Below are positions 6,813 to 47,636 of a DNA stretch of 64,000 bases, piece after piece; position 1 is the stretch's first letter; each line of letters starts with the position of its first letter. The translations under genes and the position numbers were made by a program. Origin of the DNA: Roseibium porphyridii (GTDB lineage: Bacteria > Pseudomonadota > Alphaproteobacteria > Rhizobiales > Stappiaceae). The notes beneath the pieces were generated by a model. The model ran no database searches. It was not told the origin of the DNA and worked only from the letters and a program-made list of their open reading frames with translations. The DNA lies in NCBI RefSeq assembly GCF_026191725.2, contig NZ_CP120863.1, positions 2,894,001 through 2,958,000 of the forward strand, in the 5' to 3' direction.

Positions 6813-7226
6813 ATGCTGCAACCGAAGCGCACAAAGTTCCGCAAGCAGCACAAAGGCCGCATTCACGGCTTGTCGAAGGGAGGCACCGACCTCAACTTCG
6901 GCGCATTCGGTCTGAAGGCTTTGGAGCCAGAGCGTGTTACTGCACGTCAGATCGAAGCGGCCCGTCGTGCTATGACCCGCCACATGAAACGTGCGGGTCG
7001 TGTTTGGATCCGTATCTTCCCGGACGTTCCGGTTTCTTCGAAGCCTGCTGAAGTCCGTATGGGTAAGGGTAAGGGTTCTCCGGATTACTGGGCTTGCCGC
7101 GTCAAGCCTGGCCGGATCATGTTCGAAATTGACGGTGTGCCGGAAGACATTGCGCGTGAAGCGATGCGTCTTGCTGCTGCCAAACTGCCGATCAAATGCC
7201 GTTTCGTTCAGCGTATCGGCGAGTAA
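6813..7226 (+). CDS. rplP: 50S ribosomal protein L16
   Basis: Large-subunit protein at the A-site tRNA elbow. The 137 residues begin [19 protein letters not shown] and include the conserved [20 protein letters not shown] segment. The length is standard. A GAGAGAAGAACG leader provides the ribosome-binding site. rpmC follows 21 nt downstream. Confidence 0.98.
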
Positions 7227-7247
7227 GGCAGTCGAGGAGTTAATGCC

Positions 7248-7448
7248 ATGAAGGCGACCGAAGTACGGGCGAAAACCGTTGATGAGCTCCGCACGGAACT
7301 CGAAGGTCTGAAGAAAGAGCAGTTCAATCTGCGTTTTCAGAAGGCAACGGGTCAGCTTGAAAACACAGCGCGCGTCCGGCAGATCCGCCGCGACATCGCG
7401 CGTATCCAGACGATCATGCGCGAAAAGCGCGTGACGGCGAACGCTTAA
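7248..7448 (+). CDS. rpmC: 50S ribosomal protein L29
   Basis: Small tunnel-exit protein next to L23. The 66-residue two-helix protein has the family pattern: [20 protein letters not shown] followed by [18 protein letters not shown]. It sits in the invariant rplP-rpmC-rpsQ order, 10 nt before rpsQ. Confidence 0.97.
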
Positions 7449-7458
7449 GGAGACGGCA

Positions 7459-7689
7459 ATGCCAAAGCGTATCTTGCAGGGCACCGTTGTCGGCGACGCC
7501 AATGACAAGACGGTGACGGTGAACGTGGAGCGTCGCTTCACACACCCGCTGCTGAAGAAGACTGTGCGCCGGACTAAAAAGTACCGCGCACACGACGAAA
7601 GCAATCAATACAAGATTGGCGACTCTGTTCAGATCGAAGAGTGCGCGCCGATCTCGAAAAACAAACGTTGGACTGTGGTCACTCAGTGA
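7459..7689 (+). CDS. rpsQ: 30S ribosomal protein S17
   Basis: OB-fold protein that binds the 5' domain of 16S rRNA. The 76 residues show the typical start [19 protein letters not shown] and the signature [25 protein letters not shown] just upstream is a strong ribosome-binding site. It is the last gene of the classical S10 set; 67 nt then separate it from rplN, with a short GGCGCT/AGCGCC hairpin in the gap. Confidence 0.98.
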
Positions 7690-7756
7690 CCACGCTCCGA
7701 TCAAGTGAGCATCAGGCGCTTAACCGAGCGCCAATAGAAGAACAAGGCAGCCAGTC

Positions 7757-8125
7757 ATGATTCAGATGCAAACAAACCTCGACGTCGCCGATAATTCCGG
7801 CGCGCGTCGTGTCATGTGCATCAAAGTGCTCGGCGGCTCCAAGCGTAAATATGCCCAGGTCGGCGACATTATCGTCGTCTCCGTCAAAGAGGCTATTCCG
7901 CGGGGCCGCGTTAAGAAGGGCGACGTGATGAAGGCTGTCGTCGTGCGCACGGCAAAGGATATCCGCCGTCCCGATGGCAGCGTGATCCGGTTCGACCGCA
8001 ATGCGGCCGTGCTGGTCAACAACAATAAGGAGCCGGTCGGCACCCGTATCTTTGGTCCGGTGCCGCGCGAACTCCGTGCAAAAAACCATATGAAAATCAT
8101 TTCGCTCGCGCCGGAGGTGCTCTGA
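7757..8125 (+). CDS. rplN: 50S ribosomal protein L14
   Basis: First gene of the spc part. L14 lies at the subunit interface and is the target of the RsfS silencing factor. The 122 residues start [19 protein letters not shown] and carry the classic [20 protein letters not shown] block. The stop overlaps rplX by one base. No clear new promoter is visible in the 67-nt gap upstream, so read-through from the S10 genes is likely. Confidence 0.98.
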
Positions 8126-23248: not shown

Positions 23249-25639
23249 ATGAAGGAAATCGAACTCAGATTGGCGCTTGTGCTCTATGGGGGCGTGTCCC
23301 TGGCCATCTATATGCACGGCGTGAGCCGTGAAGTTTTGAACCTGGTACGCGCTTCGAACTTCCGGTTGGATCGCAATGCTGGCAAGACTGCCGAGAACCA
23401 ACCTTCAGAACTGTCTCCGGTTCAAACCGCATTTCGTGACCTTCTCGATCTAATTTCTTCTGTTGCCGACATCAGAGTTGTTGTTGATGCAATCGCAGGC
23501 GCTTCGGCTGGTGGTGTCAACGGTATCATGCTGGCGCGCGCCATCGCCCACGACCTGCCGCTCGACAGCCATAGTGAGATGTGGCTTCAAAATGCTGACG
23601 TTACGCGGCTGGCAAGGCCCCAGTCCGGTCTTTCACGCTATCTGAAGCTTTCGGTTTCACCGGTTTTGGACCGTCTCATCTCTTCTAGACTGAACAAACA
23701 GATCGAGAGTGCAGAGACACGCGAGAAACTGCGCCAATTCATGCAGTCGCGCTGGTTTTCGCCGCCGTTTTCGGGCGAACGCTTTATCGGCTGGATGCTG
23801 GATGCATGCCGAAAAATGGAAAACGGGGAAAGCACTGGCCGGTCGCTGATACCACGCGGGCAAACACTCGACCTATTCGTCACCATTACAGATTACAACG
23901 GCATGAAGCGCCGGATCCATCTGGATGACCCCGCTTTTGTGGAAGAGTGGGATCATCGCCGAATCTTAAACTTTCATGCAGTTCACCGGGCACCAGGTTT
24001 TGTCGACAGTCAATTCGACACAGATAACATCCCGGACATTGTCTTTGCTGCACGCGCAACCTCTTCTTTCCCGGGAGCCTTTCCTCCGGCGACAGTTGCG
24101 GAGATGGAAAGGGTGCTTTCAAGGAAGGAGCTGGCCTGGAACAATCGAGATTCGTTTCTGGCCCAGGGCCTCGATCTTAGATCCGAAACTTTCGGCAATC
24201 ACTGCTTCGTCGACGGCAGTGTTGTCATGAACAAGCCGTTTGCTCCCGTGATTGACGTTATTCAGAGACGGCCGGCCGCGCGCGAAGTTGCTCGGCGTTT
24301 GATTTATGTCGATCCAGCACCGGTGGAACCGCAAGAAGCGGGCAGCGGTCCTGTCGAGTTGCCGGGATTTTTTCGGGTTATTCTGGCATCGCTTGCGCAT
24401 ATTCCTCGAAATGAGCCGATTGGCGATGACCTGCGTGAACTGGAACAGAACAACAGGCGAAGCCGGTGGCTATCACAGCTGATCGATGCAGCGGGACCCA
24501 TGGTGGAGCAGGCGGTTTCGGGACTGCTGCCAAAGCGGCGCAAGGTGAGCGCTGCGTTGCTGGCCAAGTGCCGCCAGGATGCGACAGTAGCTGCCTTCCA
24601 GCAGGCAGGCTTTGCTTTCCTGAACTATCAGTCGCTGAAACTTCATGCTCTTGCCGAGCGGATTGCCGGTCTTGCAGCGCTGTTGAATGAAGACGAGGGC
24701 GCACGGGCGCAGGAAGAGGCCATGCTGGGCCTGTTTGCAAACCACTTCACGGATCTCACGAAAAACAGCAAGGATGTACTTGGCCGCACCGACCCGGAGA
24801 TTGTTGGACTGCTGCGTGGTCTTGACGTTGATTATCGGGTGAGGCGGTTGCGTTTCGTCATTCGCAAGCTCAACGGGTTTTACCACTATGAGCCCGACAG
24901 CGGGTTGCCGCCGCCAGATACAGCCGCGCTCGATCGCCTGAAAGGTTTGCTGTACGAGCAAATCGACCATTTGGGCTGGCGCTGGACCCGTCGATTTTTT
25001 GGTGGCAGAAGCCAGTCAATAACGCGGGAATTCGTTCAGGATGTTTCAGTTGGTGCATCCACTGCGGGCGATCATGTCGCAACTCTCCTGGACAGCCTGA
25101 TCGGCATGATGGGACTTGCTGATCTCGACCGGTTACAGGACGAATTGTTTGCTGAAACGGCACTTGAGCTGCTCGACAAGGAACGGCATGCGACCCTGAT
25201 GCGAGCCTATATTGGCTTTGCGTTTTATGACCTCATTACATTTCCAGTCCTGCAAAGAAACGATTTTTCCGAAGTCACTGAGATATTGGTCGACCGGATC
25301 AGCCCACGGGACGCGACAAGCCTTTTCACGCAAGGGTTTGACCTGAAAGGCAAGCAACTCAATACCTTTGGTGCCTTCTTCAATAGAGGCTGGCGGGAAC
25401 ATGATTATCTGTGGGGGCGCTTGAACGCCGCCGACAGGCTGGTGAGCATTGTCTTGTCCGCTGCTCATGAGGGCACTTTGCCGCAGCCGCAGGTCAATCA
25501 GGCTCGCGCGCGTATCTTTTTGGCCGTTTTGGAAGAAGAGCGCGGAAAACTCACTGAAATACCTGATGAAATTGACCGTATCGACGCTTTGGTCAGATCC
25601 ATTTATCCCGACTTTGCGCATGTTGAAGAGGAAGTCTAG
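23249..25639 (+). CDS. Large patatin-like phospholipase-family protein (DUF3376 type)
   Basis: Predicted serine lipid acyl hydrolase. The 796 residues lack a signal peptide. The N-terminal patatin domain (about 5-345) has the oxyanion-hole region VLYGGVSLAIYMHG, the nucleophile elbow GASAGG with Ser86, and the catalytic Asp322 in FVDGSVVMNKP, so the Ser-Asp dyad is intact. The long C-terminal half has no familiar motif; it fits the patatin-related family with a DUF3376 C-terminal domain. The three fatty-acid-hydroxylase genes begin 99 nt downstream on the same strand, suggesting a lipid context. Substrate unknown. Confidence 0.88.
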   Translation: MKEIELRLALVLYGGVSLAIYMHGVSREVLNLVRASNFRLDRNAGKTAENQPSELSPVQTAFRDLLDLISSVADIRVVVDAIAGASAGGVNGIMLARAIAHDLPLDSHSEMWLQNADVTRLARPQSGLSRYLKLSVSPVLDRLISSRLNKQIESAETREKLRQFMQSRWFSPPFSGERFIGWMLDACRKMENGESTGRSLIPRGQTLDLFVTITDYNGMKRRIHLDDPAFVEEWDHRRILNFHAVHRAPGFVDSQFDTDNIPDIVFAARATSSFPGAFPPATVAEMERVLSRKELAWNNRDSFLAQGLDLRSETFGNHCFVDGSVVMNKPFAPVIDVIQRRPAAREVARRLIYVDPAPVEPQEAGSGPVELPGFFRVILASLAHIPRNEPIGDDLRELEQNNRRSRWLSQLIDAAGPMVEQAVSGLLPKRRKVSAALLAKCRQDATVAAFQQAGFAFLNYQSLKLHALAERIAGLAALLNEDEGARAQEEAMLGLFANHFTDLTKNSKDVLGRTDPEIVGLLRGLDVDYRVRRLRFVIRKLNGFYHYEPDSGLPPPDTAALDRLKGLLYEQIDHLGWRWTRRFFGGRSQSITREFVQDVSVGASTAGDHVATLLDSLIGMMGLADLDRLQDELFAETALELLDKERHATLMRAYIGFAFYDLITFPVLQRNDFSEVTEILVDRISPRDATSLFTQGFDLKGKQLNTFGAFFNRGWREHDYLWGRLNAADRLVSIVLSAAHEGTLPQPQVNQARARIFLAVLEEERGKLTEIPDEIDRIDALVRSIYPDFAHVEEEV

Positions 25640-35233: not shown

Positions 35234-35965
35234 CTAGACCTCAAACTCATCGATATCGCCGAATGCTTCCCGTAACTTGTCCGACCAGCTTTGTGAAAGC
35301 TTCCGGAAATATGGGTCATTCTGTTCGATCCGAACCTGACGCTCGGTTGAGAAGGTATCGGTATTGTAGAGAAGCATGTCGATCGGCATGCCGACAGACA
35401 GGTTGGACCGCAAGGTCGAATCGAAAGACAGAAGGACCAGCTTTGCCGCTTCACCCAGGCGCATGTCCGAACGGGTCACCCGGTCAAGAATGGGCTTTCC
35501 ATACTTATGCTCGCCGATCTGCAAAAACGGCGTGTCCTCGGAGACTTCGATAAAGTTTCCGGCAGCATAGACCTGGAACATGCGCGGCTCTTCACCCCTG
35601 ATCTGTCCACCGAGGATGAAGGTGACAAAAAAGCTTTCAGCACTGGTCGCCAGCGCTTCGCCATCGATTTCCTTGACTTCACGCACGGCACTGCCGACCA
35701 GGCGTGCAACCTGAAACATCGTCTTGGCCGTCATGAGCGTGGCACGGTCGTCTTCAACAGACGTGATGTGTTCGCTCAACAGTGAAACGACGGCCTGGGT
35801 AATGGCCAGATTGCCAGCCGACAACAACGTGATGACGCGTTCGTTGGGTTCTTCCCAAGTGTGCAGTTTCTTGAACGTGGCAATGTTGTCGACACCGGCA
35901 TTGGTCCGCGTGTCCGCTGCGAACAGCAACCCCCGGTCCAATTTCAACCCGACACAATAGGTCAT
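35234..35965 (-). CDS. Anbu proteasome-type peptidase (COG3484)
   Basis: Member of the ancestral β-subunit (Anbu) family of Ntn hydrolases related to HslV and the 20S proteasome. From the ATG at 35965 the product is 243 residues starting MTYCVGLKLDRGLLFAADTR, placing Thr2 as the N-terminal nucleophile after Met removal; an upstream in-frame ATG at 35989 would bury it. Other hallmarks are TNAGVDNIATFKKLH and the Lys-containing core. Known Anbu proteins assemble into open rings or spirals and their substrate is unsettled. It is the last of four tightly spaced minus-strand genes (ATP-grasp, alpha-E, transglutaminase, Anbu). Confidence 0.94.
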   Translation of the reverse strand: MTYCVGLKLDRGLLFAADTRTNAGVDNIATFKKLHTWEEPNERVITLLSAGNLAITQAVVSLLSEHITSVEDDRATLMTAKTMFQVARLVGSAVREVKEIDGEALATSAESFFVTFILGGQIRGEEPRMFQVYAAGNFIEVSEDTPFLQIGEHKYGKPILDRVTRSDMRLGEAAKLVLLSFDSTLRSNLSVGMPIDMLLYNTDTFSTERQVRIEQNDPYFRKLSQSWSDKLREAFGDIDEFEV

Positions 35966-36033
35966 TTCAAAGCCCCGCCCATGCTTCAATGCCGGGCGTC
36001 GAAGGCTCGGCTCAAGTCTTTGCCTTATGACAG

Positions 36034-36852
36034 CTATTGCTGCTGTTGCAAAGCAGCCTGTGCGACATCCACTTCTACTTGAAGGTTTTCCTCAAGACCG
36101 CCGAAACGAAGTCCTTTGATGGGGGCCGCAGAGCGAGAATCGAGCCCGGTCGTCAGGCGAACGTAGCGGTCGGTCGGACACATGGCATTGGATATGTCGA
36201 ATCCGGTCCATCCCAATCCATTGATCAGAACCTCCGCCCACGCATGGTGCGCCTCCGAAGCCTGTTCTTCTTCCAGTAGCAAATATCCCGACACGTATCT
36301 GGCTGGAATGCCGATCGAGCGGGCGGCAGCTATGAAGATATGCGCATGATCCTGGCAGACCCCTTCGCCAGCGGCCAAAGCAGCCGTGGCGGAGGCGTGG
36401 GTCTCGGTCACGCCGATCTTATAGTCCACCTTGTCTCGTATGGCATGCATCAGCGCGTGAAAGCCGGCGATCTTGTCGTGGCTTTCGGCAAGTGTCGCGA
36501 GCTTGCGGATCGCCTGATTTGTCTGGGTCAGCGGTGTCACGCGCGTATAGAGGCGGGTCGGAGCGCCGGCATCCGGTTCGTGACCGATGACGCCGTTGGT
36601 GTCGACTGTGTCGACGGTGCCCGACGCCGTAATCTCAACCGTTTCAACCAGCTCGCTTCTGGAGACCATATGCACACGGTTCTCGAAGGCGTCCTTGTAA
36701 GTGGTGGCACGCTCAATGCCGGGAGCATCGATGGACCATTCCACGATCGTCTGTGACGGTCCATCTTCCGGTGTCAGCCTGAGTTGCTGCATGGCATTGG
36801 CCAGCGGCGTGTCGTAGCGGTATCGAGTCGTGTGTCGGACAGTCAGTCTCAT
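36034..36852 (-). CDS. Transglutaminase-like cysteine protease-fold protein (Anbu operon)
   Basis: Papain-fold transglutaminase-superfamily enzyme. The 272 residues have the N-terminal β-domain (Bact_transglu_N, about 1-90, beginning MRLTVRHTTRYRYD) and a catalytic core with Cys166 (GEGVCQDHAHIF), His203 (HHAWAEV) and Asp219 (GFDISN), all intact. Bacterial members can act as proteases or amide-cleaving and cross-linking enzymes. It sits 21 nt after the alpha-E gene and 68 nt before the Anbu gene, the conserved order for this locus. Confidence 0.93.
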   Translation of the reverse strand: MRLTVRHTTRYRYDTPLANAMQQLRLTPEDGPSQTIVEWSIDAPGIERATTYKDAFENRVHMVSRSELVETVEITASGTVDTVDTNGVIGHEPDAGAPTRLYTRVTPLTQTNQAIRKLATLAESHDKIAGFHALMHAIRDKVDYKIGVTETHASATAALAAGEGVCQDHAHIFIAAARSIGIPARYVSGYLLLEEEQASEAHHAWAEVLINGLGWTGFDISNAMCPTDRYVRLTTGLDSRSAAPIKGLRFGGLEENLQVEVDVAQAALQQQQ

Positions 36853-36873
36853 GGGGTCGGTCCGGGGCTCAGG

Positions 36874-37824
36874 TCAGGCAAAATTGTAGTCTTCGGAAAG
36901 CTGTTGGGCGAACTGATTGTTCTTGCCGATGAAGTCTGTGAGGAATTCATGGAGGCCTTCCTGATAGATTTCCCGCATTTGCTTTTGCCTCAGTTCTTTT
37001 GCGATGTCTGTGGCAAGCTGAAGGCTCGGCTCGCTTGAGCCATAGAATTGTTCAAGGTCTTCCGCAGTATCGCTGATCCAGTCATAGCAGTGCGCAAGAG
37101 ACCGCGGCATCTCTTTCCTGAGCACAAGAAACTCTGCGATGTTGAACGCCTTCAGGTGGGCATTTGAATAGGCGAAACGATAACTTCTGCGACCGGAAAG
37201 TGCCCTGAGGATCGCTGACCATTGGAAACGGTCCGTGGAACCGTCTTCGATGATGTCGTTGTCGGGCAGAAGCACCCAATACTGTGTGTTCAAGATGCGG
37301 GCCGTATTGTCGGCGCGCTCCACAAAATTGCCCATCTGGCTGAAGCAATAACCGTCATCCCGCAGGACGGTGTTCAGAAACGCTCCGCGGCAAAGATGTT
37401 CGCGTTGGATGACCCAGGCCAGGAAATCTGGAAGTTTTTCCTGTGTGATCGATTGTGGATTGACTTCGGCAAACTCGATCCAGGTTGTGTTGATCGCCTC
37501 CCAAAGCTCAGTCGTGATGCTGGTGCGCACCGCGCGGGCATTGTTGCGCGCATGCTCCAGACTGTTTCTGACACTTGCCGGATTGTCTTTGGAAAAGATC
37601 AGGTAATTGGTGACATTGCGAAGAGCCAGTTCGTCGTATTTGGCTTGAAAACCGCTTTCACAACCGGCACAAGTCAGCGCAAAAGTCCAGTGTGTGCCGT
37701 GCTCCTGACCCATGTGAGACATGATGGCGCCGCGGTAGCCTACTTCCAGCAGGCGCGTGACGTTCAGGGCGCGCTCCTGATAGCGCGACATCCAAAACAG
37801 CGAAGAGGCGGTTCTTCCGAGCAT
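36874..37824 (-). CDS. Alpha-E domain protein (Anbu operon)
   Basis: Helical protein of unknown biochemical function. The 316 residues start with the diagnostic LGRTASSLFWMSRYQERALN; further conserved parts are NTVLRDDGYCFSQMGNFVER and ADNTARILNTQYW. The family is named for a conserved Glu-rich helical fold and almost always accompanies circularly permuted ATP-grasp and transglutaminase genes. The ATG directly abuts the stop of the ATP-grasp gene (TAGATG), implying translational coupling. Confidence 0.92.
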   Translation of the reverse strand: MLGRTASSLFWMSRYQERALNVTRLLEVGYRGAIMSHMGQEHGTHWTFALTCAGCESGFQAKYDELALRNVTNYLIFSKDNPASVRNSLEHARNNARAVRTSITTELWEAINTTWIEFAEVNPQSITQEKLPDFLAWVIQREHLCRGAFLNTVLRDDGYCFSQMGNFVERADNTARILNTQYWVLLPDNDIIEDGSTDRFQWSAILRALSGRRSYRFAYSNAHLKAFNIAEFLVLRKEMPRSLAHCYDWISDTAEDLEQFYGSSEPSLQLATDIAKELRQKQMREIYQEGLHEFLTDFIGKNNQFAQQLSEDYNFA

Positions 37825-39249
37825 CTAGTCCTCAAGTACCCAGGTGTCTTTGGTGCCGCCGCCCTGGCTGGAGTTCACGACGAGTGATCCCCTTTTCAGC
37901 GCAACTCGGGTCAGGCCGCCAGGCGTAATGCGAACCCGGTCTCCGATCAGGACAAACGGGCGAAGGTCTACATGGCGCGGGGCAACACCCGATGCCACGT
38001 GTGTCGGACAGGCCGACAGGGCCAAGGTAGGCTGTGCGATATAGTTGGTTGGATTGGATTCCAGAACCTTTCGGAATTCAGCAATTTCCCGCTTCGACGC
38101 AGTTGGACCTATCAGCATTCCGTAGCCACCAGATCCGTGGACTTCCTTCACCACAATCTCTTCAAGGTTGTCCAAGACATAGGCAAGATCGTCAGGGCGG
38201 GAACAGTTCCAGGTCGGCACGTTGTTCAGTATGGGTTTTTGACCTGTATAGAACTCGATGATGTCGGGGACATAGGCATAGATCGCCTTGTCATCTGCGA
38301 TACCCGTTCCAGGCGCGTTGCAGATCGTGACGTTGCCGGCACGATAGGCGTCAAACAATCCCGGCACGCCGAGCATGCTGTCCGGATTGAAGGTGAGGGG
38401 GTCCAGAAACGCATCGTCAATGCGCCGGTAAATAACATCGACCTGTTTCGGTTGACGCGTCGTACGCATGAACACTTTGCCTGCGTCGACAAATAGATCC
38501 CGGCCTTCAACCAGTTCAACGCCCATTGAGTCGGCCAAAAAGGCGTGCTCGAAATAGGCAGAGTTATAAATGCCGGGCGTCAGGACGACCACGGTCTGGG
38601 TTGATTTGGACAGGTCCGGAGCAACGCTTTCCAAGGTGAGGCGAAGGCTTTCGGGATATTGCTCGACCGGGGCGACGCGATGCATCTGGAAGAGCTCTGG
38701 AAACAGGCGCATCATGGTTTCCCGGTTCTCCATCATGTAGGAGACACCGGAAGGGGTGCGGGTATTGTCTTCAAGAACATAGAACTCGTTCTCAGACACC
38801 CTTACGAGGTCGGTACCGATGATATGCGCATAAACTTTGCGTGCAGGTGTGAACCCGGCCATTTCCGGGAGAAAAGCCTCGTTCTGCAAAATCAGATCGG
38901 CAGGTATTCTGCCGGCCCTCAAGATTTCCTGGCGGTGATAAATATCATGCATGAACGCATTCAGCGCCCGCACACGCTGGTCAATGCCGGCTGACAAGCG
39001 GCGCCATTCCCCGGCCGATATCACTCGGGGGATCGGATCGAAGGGAATCAGGCGTTCGGTTGCCTCTTCGGCGCCATAGACCGCAAAGGTGATGCCGAGA
39101 CGTCTGAAGATCGTTTCTGCATCTCGGCTCTTTTTGGAAAGGAAGTTGGCGGGCTTGTCTTCAAGCCATTTTGAGAGCCTGGCATACGGAGTGCGCGAGT
39201 TCCCGGTCTCGTCGAGCATTTCATTGAAGAAAGTGCGAGCGTCCGCCAT
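37825..39249 (-). CDS. Circularly permuted ATP-grasp amidoligase-like protein (Anbu operon)
   Basis: Predicted ATP-dependent carboxylate-amine or peptide ligase. The 474 residues begin MADARTFFNEMLDETGNSR. The circularly permuted ATP-grasp core shows RALNAFMHDIYHRQEIL, YVLEDNTRTPSGVSYMMENR, ICNAPGTGIADDKAIYAYVP and the Gly-rich nucleotide loop VVKEVHGSGGYGMLIGP. The start has an excellent GGGGAGG. It is the first of four overlapping or closely spaced genes; comparative genomics groups have proposed a peptide synthesis or tagging function for such loci, without biochemical proof that I know of. Confidence 0.93.
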   Translation of the reverse strand: MADARTFFNEMLDETGNSRTPYARLSKWLEDKPANFLSKKSRDAETIFRRLGITFAVYGAEEATERLIPFDPIPRVISAGEWRRLSAGIDQRVRALNAFMHDIYHRQEILRAGRIPADLILQNEAFLPEMAGFTPARKVYAHIIGTDLVRVSENEFYVLEDNTRTPSGVSYMMENRETMMRLFPELFQMHRVAPVEQYPESLRLTLESVAPDLSKSTQTVVVLTPGIYNSAYFEHAFLADSMGVELVEGRDLFVDAGKVFMRTTRQPKQVDVIYRRIDDAFLDPLTFNPDSMLGVPGLFDAYRAGNVTICNAPGTGIADDKAIYAYVPDIIEFYTGQKPILNNVPTWNCSRPDDLAYVLDNLEEIVVKEVHGSGGYGMLIGPTASKREIAEFRKVLESNPTNYIAQPTLALSACPTHVASGVAPRHVDLRPFVLIGDRVRITPGGLTRVALKRGSLVVNSSQGGGTKDTWVLED

Positions 39250-39359: not shown

Positions 39360-40361
39360 TTAGTCTCTAAAGGAAGTCGTTCCATCCACCTTTGTAAACC
39401 GTCCCTTGCCGTCAACATGCACGGTCATGGTGTCGTCTGCTGACCAGTAGGGATAGTTCGTGAATTTGAAGATACGCGGGTAGATGGTGAGCTTACCGTT
39501 TTTCGCGACCTCCTTGGTATTGGAGACTGTCAGCATGCCAGCTTCGCTGCGTCCTGCGGGCTGCAGCTGACTGAGGTTGATGCCGGGCTGTTCATTGCGG
39601 TTGAAGCTCTGATAGAGCTCTCCGCCATAGACTGCACAGTCAATATGCAGTCTGCTGCGACCGATCCGTGGCCCGGAAGACGTTGGTGTCCACTTGATGT
39701 TGCCGTCGATCCCCCATTCGTCCACGCCAAAGCCAAGATGAATTGTTGTGCCGTCTTTGACCGGGATGTTCTTCATTCGCATGTAAACGTTGCCGGATCG
39801 GTTCTCGACCGAATATTCCGGCGAAATATAGTTCCAACCTATTTCACCGTCGAGCACGTGCAGTTTCTGCCATTCATAAAAGATCCCGGCACCGATGGAG
39901 GCAGATATTGGTGTGGGCAGAAGATTGAATTGTCGTCCCTGCTGAACAACGCCGAGGTCGCCAACAATGTACTGGGCAAGGCGTTTTCCTGATTCATGCA
40001 ACGCCCATTCACCGGTTTGCTTGCCCGCAGCTTTCATAACTTCCTTGAAAACACTTGCGCCGGATTTGACAACCGCATCCGCATCACCGCCAAAGGACAG
40101 TTCCCAGTCGAGCCCGGAAGATGTAATGCCGTCCATCTCTCTTGCCGTTCTGCAGCCCGTGACAAGAAGAATCGCCATGGCGGTGCCGGCCTCCGCCATC
40201 AAGCCGGCGCGCTTGCCGGTCACCAGAACCTGTATGGGTAATTTCTTCGATCCCATATTCCAGAGATCGAACTGAAAAACACTTCCTCCAGCGAGTATCG
40301 AACCAGAGAAACCGCCGCCTAAAATGGCAATCCATGTTGTTTCGGGACTGTATAAAGTCAT
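39360..40361 (-). CDS. Unknown protein with glycine-rich hydrophobic N terminus
   Basis: I do not recognise this gene. From the ATG at 40361 (GGGAG 8 nt upstream) the product is 333 residues; a longer frame starting at 40424 would add 21 residues. It opens with a Gly-rich hydrophobic stretch (TWIAILGGGFSGSILAGG), a second hydrophobic stretch around AEAGTAMAILLVTGC, then a soluble region rich in β-type sequence (GFGVDEWGIDGNIKW; MTVHVDGKGRFTKVDG). The Gly-rich patches are reminiscent of membrane-associated or lipid-modified surface proteins. It ends 110 nt before the ATP-grasp gene on the same strand, so it may or may not belong to the Anbu operon. Confidence 0.75.
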   Translation of the reverse strand: MTLYSPETTWIAILGGGFSGSILAGGSVFQFDLWNMGSKKLPIQVLVTGKRAGLMAEAGTAMAILLVTGCRTAREMDGITSSGLDWELSFGGDADAVVKSGASVFKEVMKAAGKQTGEWALHESGKRLAQYIVGDLGVVQQGRQFNLLPTPISASIGAGIFYEWQKLHVLDGEIGWNYISPEYSVENRSGNVYMRMKNIPVKDGTTIHLGFGVDEWGIDGNIKWTPTSSGPRIGRSRLHIDCAVYGGELYQSFNRNEQPGINLSQLQPAGRSEAGMLTVSNTKEVAKNGKLTIYPRIFKFTNYPYWSADDTMTVHVDGKGRFTKVDGTTSFRD

Positions 40362-40509
40362 CGCAAATGCTCCCAGCCGGCTTGCAGTATTAAGCCATAA
40401 AAATGCATTTTTATTGCAGGGCAAAATCCCTTCAGTGCCCGGACTCAGGTCAAAGGGAGCCCGTTCACAATCACCGAATTTAGTATGAAATAACGTTAGG
40501 GGATGTGTC

Positions 40510-46447: not shown

Positions 46448-46502
46448 ACCACGAAAACGTTGCCAAGAACAAGCGCAACCGTTAGACAGTGGTGCAGAGA
46501 AC

Positions 46503-46643
46503 AGTTCTCGGGGCGGGGTGCAATTCCCCACCGGCGGTATCAGGGAAACCTGGAGCCCGCGAGCGCCTTGCAACGTTTGTTTCAAGGGTCAGCAGATCCG
46601 GTGAGAAGCCGGAGCCGACGGTTACAGTCCGGATGAGAGAGAA
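46503..46643 (+). promoter_or_regulatory. FMN riboswitch (RFN element)
   Basis: Contains the conserved core of the FMN aptamer: TTCTCGGGGCGGGGTG, CAATTCCCCACCGGCGGT, AGCCCGCGAGCGCC, GTCAGCAGATCCGGTGAGA, AGCCGGAGCCGACGGTTACA and GTCCGGATGAGAGAGAA. It lies about 90 nt before the start of the transporter gene, so FMN binding probably represses its expression. An insertion (ATCAGGGAAACCTGG) forms its own short hairpin in one aptamer arm. Confidence 0.94.
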
Positions 46644-46730
46644 CTTGGACGCGGGTCTAACAGCAAGGCCTGCGGACGCGTGTCTTTTGAGACTGTTCTG
46701 GAATGGACGAACCGGACAGGATCAAACGAA

Positions 46731-47636
46731 ATGACTTCACCTTCTCGCGGAGCCTTCTCAGGCCCCTTGTTTGCCGCGCTTGCGATGGTCGGCGCGGGGG
46801 CATGCTTTGCCTTGGTCAATGGGGCTCTGCAGGCCTCGACAATGCAATTGGGCGTCCCGTCAACTTCGGCGGCCTTCTGGCAATATGCCCTTGGATTGCT
46901 CATCGCCTTGCCATGGGTTCTCCGGCGGGGCCTGTCTTCCCTGAAAACGCGTCAACTCGGTTGGCATCTGATGCGGGCCGCACTGGCTGTCGTCGGCATC
47001 CAGTTGTGGGTGGCGGGCCTTGCAAGAGTGGAAATCTGGCAAGCGATTGCTCTTGTTATGACGTCTCCGTTTTTCGTTATCATCGGCGCGAAGCTGTTTT
47101 TCTCCGAGAAAGTGGGCGTTGTCCGCTGGCTTGCGACCGTTGCCGGTTTTTCAGGCGGTATGATTATCCTCCAGCCGTGGACTGAGGCGTTTCATTGGGG
47201 GGCTGTCCTGCCTGTTGCTGCCGCAGCCTTCTGGGCTGGTACATCTCTCGTGACCAAAAAGCTGACAGCGACCGAAAGAGCAGATTCCATTACGGTTTAT
47301 CTGCTGCTGTTGCTGACACCGGTCAATGCTCTGCTTGCTCTTGGTGATGGCGGAATTGTGCCTTCAGGCAATGCCCTTTGGTTGCTGATCGGCGCTGGTG
47401 TCCTGACAGTCGTTGCCAACTACCTGCTGACGCTCGCCTATAAAAATGCCGACGCAACGTTTGTGCAGCCCTTTGACCATTTGAAACTGCCACTCAACAT
47501 TGCCGTTGGGTTCCTGGCTTTTGGGTTTGCGCCTTCCGGGGCTTTCTGGCCGGGTGCACTGGTCATTGTGGGGGCATCGCTACTTGTCATGCTGGATGAA
47601 CAAAAGCGAAGCACGGCCATATCCCGAACGGCTTGA
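46731..47636 (+). CDS. ribN: RibN-type riboflavin transporter (EamA/DMT superfamily)
   Basis: Inner-membrane drug/metabolite transporter protein with about ten predicted helices. From the ATG at 46731 the product is 301 residues, beginning MTSPSRGAFSGPLFAALAMV; the longer frame starting 46680 adds 17 polar residues inside the riboswitch expression platform. Each half shows the EamA repeat. The FMN riboswitch directly upstream is the strongest argument for flavin transport, since alphaproteobacterial RibN proteins have this arrangement. Substrate assignment is therefore context-based. Confidence 0.85.
   Translation: MTSPSRGAFSGPLFAALAMVGAGACFALVNGALQASTMQLGVPSTSAAFWQYALGLLIALPWVLRRGLSSLKTRQLGWHLMRAALAVVGIQLWVAGLARVEIWQAIALVMTSPFFVIIGAKLFFSEKVGVVRWLATVAGFSGGMIILQPWTEAFHWGAVLPVAAAAFWAGTSLVTKKLTATERADSITVYLLLLLTPVNALLALGDGGIVPSGNALWLLIGAGVLTVVANYLLTLAYKNADATFVQPFDHLKLPLNIAVGFLAFGFAPSGAFWPGALVIVGASLLVMLDEQKRSTAISRTA

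Follow-up and report, generated by a model that had tools for sequence, protein, structure and literature searches.

A canonical four-gene Anbu operon in Roseibium porphyridii and the dependence of Anbu occurrence on its ATP-grasp partner

The window analysed here, a 64,000-nucleotide stretch of the Roseibium porphyridii genome (contig NZ_CP120863.1, positions 2,894,001 to 2,958,000), contains an operon of Anbu, a proteasome-like protein from which, it has been suggested, the proteasome may have descended. Four intact open reading frames (ORFs) run co-directionally on the minus strand in the Anbu-operon order: ATP-grasp, Alpha-E, transglutaminase-like protein (TG) and Anbu, with intergenic gaps of 0, 21 and 68 nt when Anbu is read from the ATG at 35965. 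The first gene encodes a free circularly permuted ATP-grasp ligase of 474 aa (37825..39249, minus strand; PF14403, E 9.1e-170; PF04174, E 1.7e-152), the second an Alpha-E protein of 316 aa (36874..37824, minus strand; PF04168, E 6.6e-82), the third the TG, of 272 aa (36034..36852, minus strand; PF01841, E 1.5e-23; PF08379, E 4.8e-20), and the fourth Anbu itself, a proteasome-like Ntn-hydrolase of 243 aa (35234..35965, minus strand; PF00227, E 1.6e-07). All of these assignments exceed the Pfam cut-offs, the family names being CP_ATPgrasp_1/2, Alpha-E, Bact_transglu_N with Transglut_core, and Proteasome, respectively. The ORFs, coordinates, strand and gaps are as given in an earlier annotation made from the letters of the window alone (the sequence-only reading), and the catalytic residues that it listed, Thr2 of Anbu with the ATG at 35965, Cys166/His203/Asp219 of the TG and the Gly-rich loop of the ATP-grasp, are all present. 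Against six related loci the operon genes have dN/dS values of 0.012–0.078, with two TG values undefined and dS near saturation in five of the six comparisons; judged from these rough ratios, purifying selection on all four is strong.

The ATP-grasp protein carries the residues of an active ligase: Glu160-Asp161-Asn162 (codons at 38764..38772, minus strand), Lys368 and the loop KEVHGSGGYGM with G374 and G375 (codons 366–378, VVKEVHGSGGYGM, 38116..38154, minus strand), Asp428 (37966..37968, minus strand) and Asn459 (37873..37875, minus strand). Glu160-Asp161-Asn162 would form part of a metal site, and the allocation of the conserved residues to metal or ATP binding is likewise putative. All eight residues (E160, D161, N162, K368, G374, G375, D428 and N459) are kept by 76 of 76 free ATP-grasps (the fetched proteins with a profile score over 400), whether or not Anbu is present in the genome. 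The protein matches the solved structure 3n6x (E 8.7e-198), deposited as a “putative glutathionylspermidine synthase”. In glutathionylspermidine synthetase/amidase, the amide made by an ATP-grasp ligase is also the target of a Cys amidase; that system is not known to include a Thr hydrolase or an Alpha-E protein. A PDB profile search with the ATP-grasp returned just 3n6x and one chance-level match, with no characterised glutathionylspermidine synthetase.

The Alpha-E model is all helical (pLDDT 90.5, pTM 0.89). A single-sequence search found no solved relative, and no match exceeded the level usual for helical bundles. The two halves of the protein are homologous, residues 12–88 aligning with about 164–246 at 96.9% probability and a score of 66.4, compared with scores no higher than 19.3 when the columns were shuffled 40 times and 15.2 with one half reversed; by this alignment, Alpha-E is an internal duplication. 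Each half contains one ER motif conserved in at least 75 of 77 free rows, Glu17-Arg18 in the first (37771..37776, minus strand; E17 in 76/77, R18 in 75/77) and Glu169-Arg170 in the second (37315..37320, minus strand; E169 in 77/77, R170 in 75/77). For the TG, 3isr is a distant relative of known structure (E 6.5e-12). The full Cys/His/Asp triad of the TG is kept in 67 of 70 rows, a set restricted to matches of at least 80 bits outside the DUF2126 fusions. Three rows are without the catalytic Cys (L076, L087 and L089), and one of them, L076, sits inside a full four-gene Anbu operon.

The Anbu ORF can be read from a TTG (35234–35989) or from an ATG (35234–35965). The ATG start yields Met-Thr, with the codon of the Thr nucleophile at 35960–35962, and a protein that aligns end to end with the solved Anbu 5nyj (E 3.2e-105; query 1–243, chain 1–244) and hence includes the Anbu C-terminal extension. 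The proteasome-site residues T2, D18, R20, K33 and G51 (Met1 numbering) are in place, and this set is complete in 65 of 66 rows. The remaining row, L140 (genome G075; Anbu at 7060–7791, plus strand), starts with Met-Ser instead of Met-Thr, and the Ser may be the nucleophile. The protein is identical to the Anbu of Labrenzia sp. THAF82 and 79–98% identical to the other Roseibium/Labrenzia entries among 39 Anbu-centred loci; names such as “proteasome-type protease” are already attached to Roseibium entries (NCBI-sourced, among the best 120 of 8000 scored). In Pseudomonas aeruginosa, Thr1 of Anbu reacts with proteasome inhibitors, including epoxomicin, and the S1 pocket of Anbu-1 is described as T20, F30, T48, L52 and S55, as opposed to an Arg-Arg pocket in Anbu-2 (PMC5666114). 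The pocket of the window protein, T-F-S-L-T, has two conservative differences and is of the Anbu-1 type, whereas an Anbu-2-like I/V-A-x-R-R pocket occurs in five other genomes. Anbu-2-like pockets are found solely with an ATP-grasp class that has Pro after Lys368 in the loop (5/5), and Phe is missing from pocket position 30 in 18 of 20 Anbu proteins paired with this class, versus 8 of 45 paired with the other. A matching of S1 pocket to ATP-grasp class was considered on these counts and dropped: the class changes only about five times on the Anbu tree and one class spans several Anbu lineages, which leaves a weak signal at the level of clades.

The locus is a typical, canonical member of an operon that is already known. 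That the gene combination is familiar from comparative genomics, as the sequence-only reading had it, is borne out by PMC5666114 and PMC6376114, which describe the operon, attribute it to Valas and Bourne (2008) and Iyer et al. (2009), and credit the latter with a hypothesis of tag or peptide synthesis. In comparison with the published operon, the four families and their order are the same, and Anbu can be aligned over its full length with a solved Anbu and the ATP-grasp with 3n6x; no structural difference was found, and just the Roseibium sequence and the flanks, with MgtE downstream, are particular to this locus. The same reading held that no substrate or product is established, in line with the statement of a 2021 paper that Anbu is without known function (PMC8665760). 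No title assigning a function to the operon, and no later assignment, was present among the matches listed in the open-licence literature.

The close relatives of the locus are in Roseibium/Labrenzia. Of the 39 Anbu-centred loci, 34 show all four genes in order and in one direction; among the other five, three are interrupted by the end of a contig and agree with the order as far as they go (L014, L036 and L037), one has a divergent Anbu (L035), and one, from a Synechococcus (L040), contains Anbu and the TG alone, also by profile searches. A set of 65 Anbu neighbourhoods was then fetched with a 5-kb limit, which together with the window stand for 66 of the 91 Anbu genomes in the two genome samples described below. 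All four genes are present in 35 neighbourhoods, 34 of which have the same gene order and 33 of these the same direction too. The remainder comprise four with ATP-grasp, Alpha-E and Anbu without the TG, eight with Anbu beside a DUF2126-TG gene, one with Anbu and the TG only, and 17 with Anbu alone, two of them doubtful (in G053 the set lies about 8 kb away, and in G036 Anbu is at one contig end and ATP-grasp/Alpha-E near another).

The dependence between the genes was followed in a class sample of 57 genomes from the class of the window, one per family, and in a phylum sample of 199 genomes, searched for Anbu and ATP-grasp and not for Alpha-E. In the class sample, the genomes with Alpha-E and those with the circularly permuted ATP-grasp are the very same 25, each family has 37 copies in them, and every pair is either fused or within about half a kilobase. 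Anbu is found in 20 of the 57 genomes (15 strong matches and five weak, Anbu-2-like ones), all of them inside those 25, so that ATP-grasp is present in 20/20 Anbu carriers and in 5/37 others (Fisher 4e-11). In the phylum sample, with Anbu in 76 genomes and ATP-grasp in 115, a free ATP-grasp is present in 75 of 76 Anbu carriers compared with 40 of 123 non-carriers (Fisher 7e-24, with no correction for relatedness), but Anbu is missing from 40 of the 115 ATP-grasp genomes, as it is from 5 of the 25 in the class sample. The dependence is therefore asymmetric: the occurrence of Anbu depends on ATP-grasp, that of ATP-grasp does not depend on Anbu, and Anbu is the accessory member. The sequence-only reading had looked to consistent co-loss of the four genes. 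The counts bear this out only partly: the genes are neither scattered independently of one another nor lost together as a four-gene unit. Nor is the TG a constant member of the set, as it is not adjacent in four of the 65 neighbourhoods and lacks its Cys in three of the 70 rows.

The 40 genomes with ATP-grasp and no Anbu also bear on the proposal that this protein is not a ligase and serves as an ATP-driven activator of Anbu, in the manner of HslU for HslV. The homologue from Yersinia bercovieri does release phosphate from ATP, in a way that its authors could not distinguish from plain ATP hydrolysis, and this release was not stimulated by Anbu, glutamine or glutamate in the experiments reported (PMC6376114). 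An activator that is so often kept in genomes free of Anbu, and that did not respond to it in vitro, is very improbable.

Anbu and ATP-grasp lie within 10 kb of each other in 64 of the 76 Anbu genomes, and where Anbu is unlinked ATP-grasp is found elsewhere in the genome in 11 of 12 cases (p 9e-5), some of these on draft contigs and six of the 11 belonging to one family. This argues against a second alternative, according to which Anbu is an autonomous starvation protease having just its regulation in common with the ligase genes, as ATP-grasp is present in 40 of 123 non-carriers compared with those 11 of 12. The 17 neighbourhoods with Anbu alone are in favour of such a protease, and so is the nitrogen response in Pseudomonas putida, where nitrogen limitation raises the expression of the Anbu-operon genes (PMC7801951, PMC8050072), with log2 values of 4.44 and 3.99 for Anbu and ATP-grasp in one study (PMC8050072). 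Control by sigma54/NtrC is reported for P. putida (PMC7801951, PMC8050072) and for a Burkholderia cenocepacia cluster with related domain names (PMC5491218). In Roseibium and its kin, no common sigma54 site was found upstream of ATP-grasp (120 nt in the window and 300 nt in each of 34 related loci), the best consensus matches varying in place and quality; given this inconsistency among loci, control of the Roseibium operon by sigma54/NtrC is not claimed. On balance, an autonomous protease is considered unlikely.

The same genome contains a second, Anbu-less locus at about 1.275–1.282 Mb (L047), which encodes a TG of 295 aa, a fused ATP-grasp/Alpha-E protein of 801 aa and, adjoining it, a TG fused to DUF2126 (PF09899), a putative amidoligase according to Pfam. 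The two loci have the Alpha-E, transglutaminase-like and circularly permuted ATP-grasp families in common; L047 differs in the absence of Anbu, the presence of the predicted amidoligase and the loss of key residues from its fused ATP-grasp. Among 19 fused proteins (those over 780 aa, with shorter or truncated ones left out), E160, N162, D428 and N459 are kept in 0/19 and the Gly-rich loop is degenerate, while the ER motifs of the Alpha-E part stay (E17 and R18 in 19/19, E169 in 19/19 and R170 in 18/19). Because the key residues are lost throughout and the ER motifs are not, the fused ATP-grasp is probably inactive as a ligase, and a role other than ATP-grasp catalysis may explain why Alpha-E is retained. 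The B. cenocepacia cluster under NtrC resembles L047 in its domain names, but there DUF404/DUF407 and DUF403 are on separate genes (PMC5491218).

Five loci of the same phylum but outside the class of the window (L165, L167, L168, L173 and L175) have free ATP-grasp, Alpha-E, fused ATP-grasp/Alpha-E, DUF2126-TG, TG and Anbu clustered together. The eight Anbu genes adjoining a DUF2126 ligase gene are likewise from genomes outside this class and fall within a single clade of the Anbu tree that has good support. Iyer et al. (2009) reportedly proposed a peptide-tagging system in which a circularly permuted ATP-grasp and a glutamine-synthetase-like ligase are joined by a peptidase of the Ntn-hydrolase type and an alpha-helical domain, so a link between Anbu and the DUF2126 ligase may already have been published.

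Taken together, the operon most likely encodes a single pathway in which an amide bond is made and broken, with Anbu as an optional hydrolase, a reading to which we assign a probability of about 0.5. The ATP-grasp, paired with Alpha-E, would spend ATP to activate a carboxylate and join it in an amide or peptide-like linkage; this bond would then be transferred or cut by the transglutaminase-like Cys enzyme; and Anbu, a Thr-nucleophile hydrolase and optional addition, would hydrolyse the product. The bond-forming half is suggested by the retained catalytic residues and by the ATP-grasp/Alpha-E pairing, and the half of transfer or hydrolysis by the chemistry of the two families and by the fact that Anbu follows amidoligases of two kinds, since it also adjoins the DUF2126 ligase in 8 of 65 neighbourhoods. 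The phosphate release from ATP by the Y. bercovieri homologue (PMC6376114) and the reaction of Thr1 of P. aeruginosa Anbu with epoxomicin (PMC5666114) count in favour of the pathway as well. Amide formation and the order of the steps are conditional in the same way, and the substrate could be a small molecule or a peptide as easily as a protein. That part of the sequence-only reading which joined a ligase to hydrolases is thus retained as the best account of the four genes, but it is not new, the ligase-plus-hydrolase idea having been published (PMC5666114, PMC6376114).

Its final step, in which Anbu degrades tagged proteins, finds no positive evidence: the published assays detected no peptidase activity of Anbu (PMC5666114, PMC6376114) and no specific interaction between the operon proteins of Y. 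bercovieri (PMC6376114). A pathway in which the ligase set tags proteins and Anbu destroys them, as in pupylation, would fit the kinship of Anbu with the proteasome, its multi-site split ring, presented in PMC5666114 as an argument for processive action, and the combination in one operon of two enzyme families able to form amide bonds. The operon has no gene for an AAA+ unfoldase, Anbu cut none of the proteins or peptides reported as tested (PMC5666114, PMC6376114), and the retention of ATP-grasp in 40 of 115 genomes that lack Anbu, and of the ATP-grasp/Alpha-E pair in 5 of 25, indicates that keeping these genes does not require degradation as a last step. Protein tagging and destruction is rather improbable on this evidence and, like the autonomous protease and the ATP-driven activator, less likely than the make-and-break amide pathway.

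Several observations weigh against the make-and-break amide pathway as well. Anbu was inactive on the substrates tried in PMC5666114 and PMC6376114, the former of which favours protein degradation over peptide synthesis. With the Y. bercovieri proteins, a pull-down gave no specific interaction and Anbu left the ATP-grasp activity unchanged (PMC6376114). In the first column of the P. putida RNA-seq table, Anbu changes 1.12-fold and the other three genes rise 11 to 15-fold (PMC7801951). In the genomes, the TG gene is absent from four clusters and its catalytic Cys from three of 70 rows; the ligase-adjacent Anbu genes, all eight in one clade, and the unlinked cases, largely from one family, carry less support than their counts suggest; and one genome, G143 (L171), has Anbu with no ATP-grasp found, the sole such case among 76.

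A wider, more tentative possibility brings the two Roseibium loci together. Alpha-E could be a duplicated helical acceptor or carrier for two amidoligases: the free ATP-grasp would be the active one in the Anbu operon, and in the second cluster the fused ATP-grasp, catalytically inactive on this view, would act only as a scaffold while the DUF2126 enzyme ligates. Anbu would then be a dedicated amidase attachable to either, in one make-and-break amide system with exchangeable ligases that is nitrogen-responsive at least in Pseudomonas and Burkholderia.

The surroundings of the operon were inspected as well. Neighbouring ORFs of the first 43 loci, clustered for hints of a substrate and judged by eye, were transporters, general genes and shadow ORFs, with nothing indicative among them. 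Upstream of ATP-grasp, a 354-aa protein (39360–40424, minus strand) is without a Pfam or NCBIfam match at E 0.001; its gene is present in just 7 of the 39 loci, some of which are short, and it was rejected as an operon member. The same applies to MgtE, which is co-directional and downstream in most Roseibium/Labrenzia loci and not in those of Stappia or Pannonibacter. Elsewhere in the window, an FMN riboswitch (46500–46648, plus strand; 118 bits, gathering threshold 66.2) lies directly 5′ of an EamA-family transporter gene (46680–47636; PF00892), which we take to resemble RibN-type riboflavin transport, and a 796-aa protein (23249–25639, plus strand) has patatin and DUF3376 matches.

What the present comparison contributes on the known operon, and what may already be in print, is the asymmetry of the dependence, the division of the ATP-grasps by their key residues and the duplication within Alpha-E. 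The fused paralogue without catalytic residues provides a natural comparison for the ligase site within one genome. Since, in the sampled genomes, Anbu is almost never found without a residue-intact free ATP-grasp and ATP-grasp is often found without Anbu, the place to look first is the product of the ATP-grasp/Alpha-E pair, and then the action of Anbu on that product.

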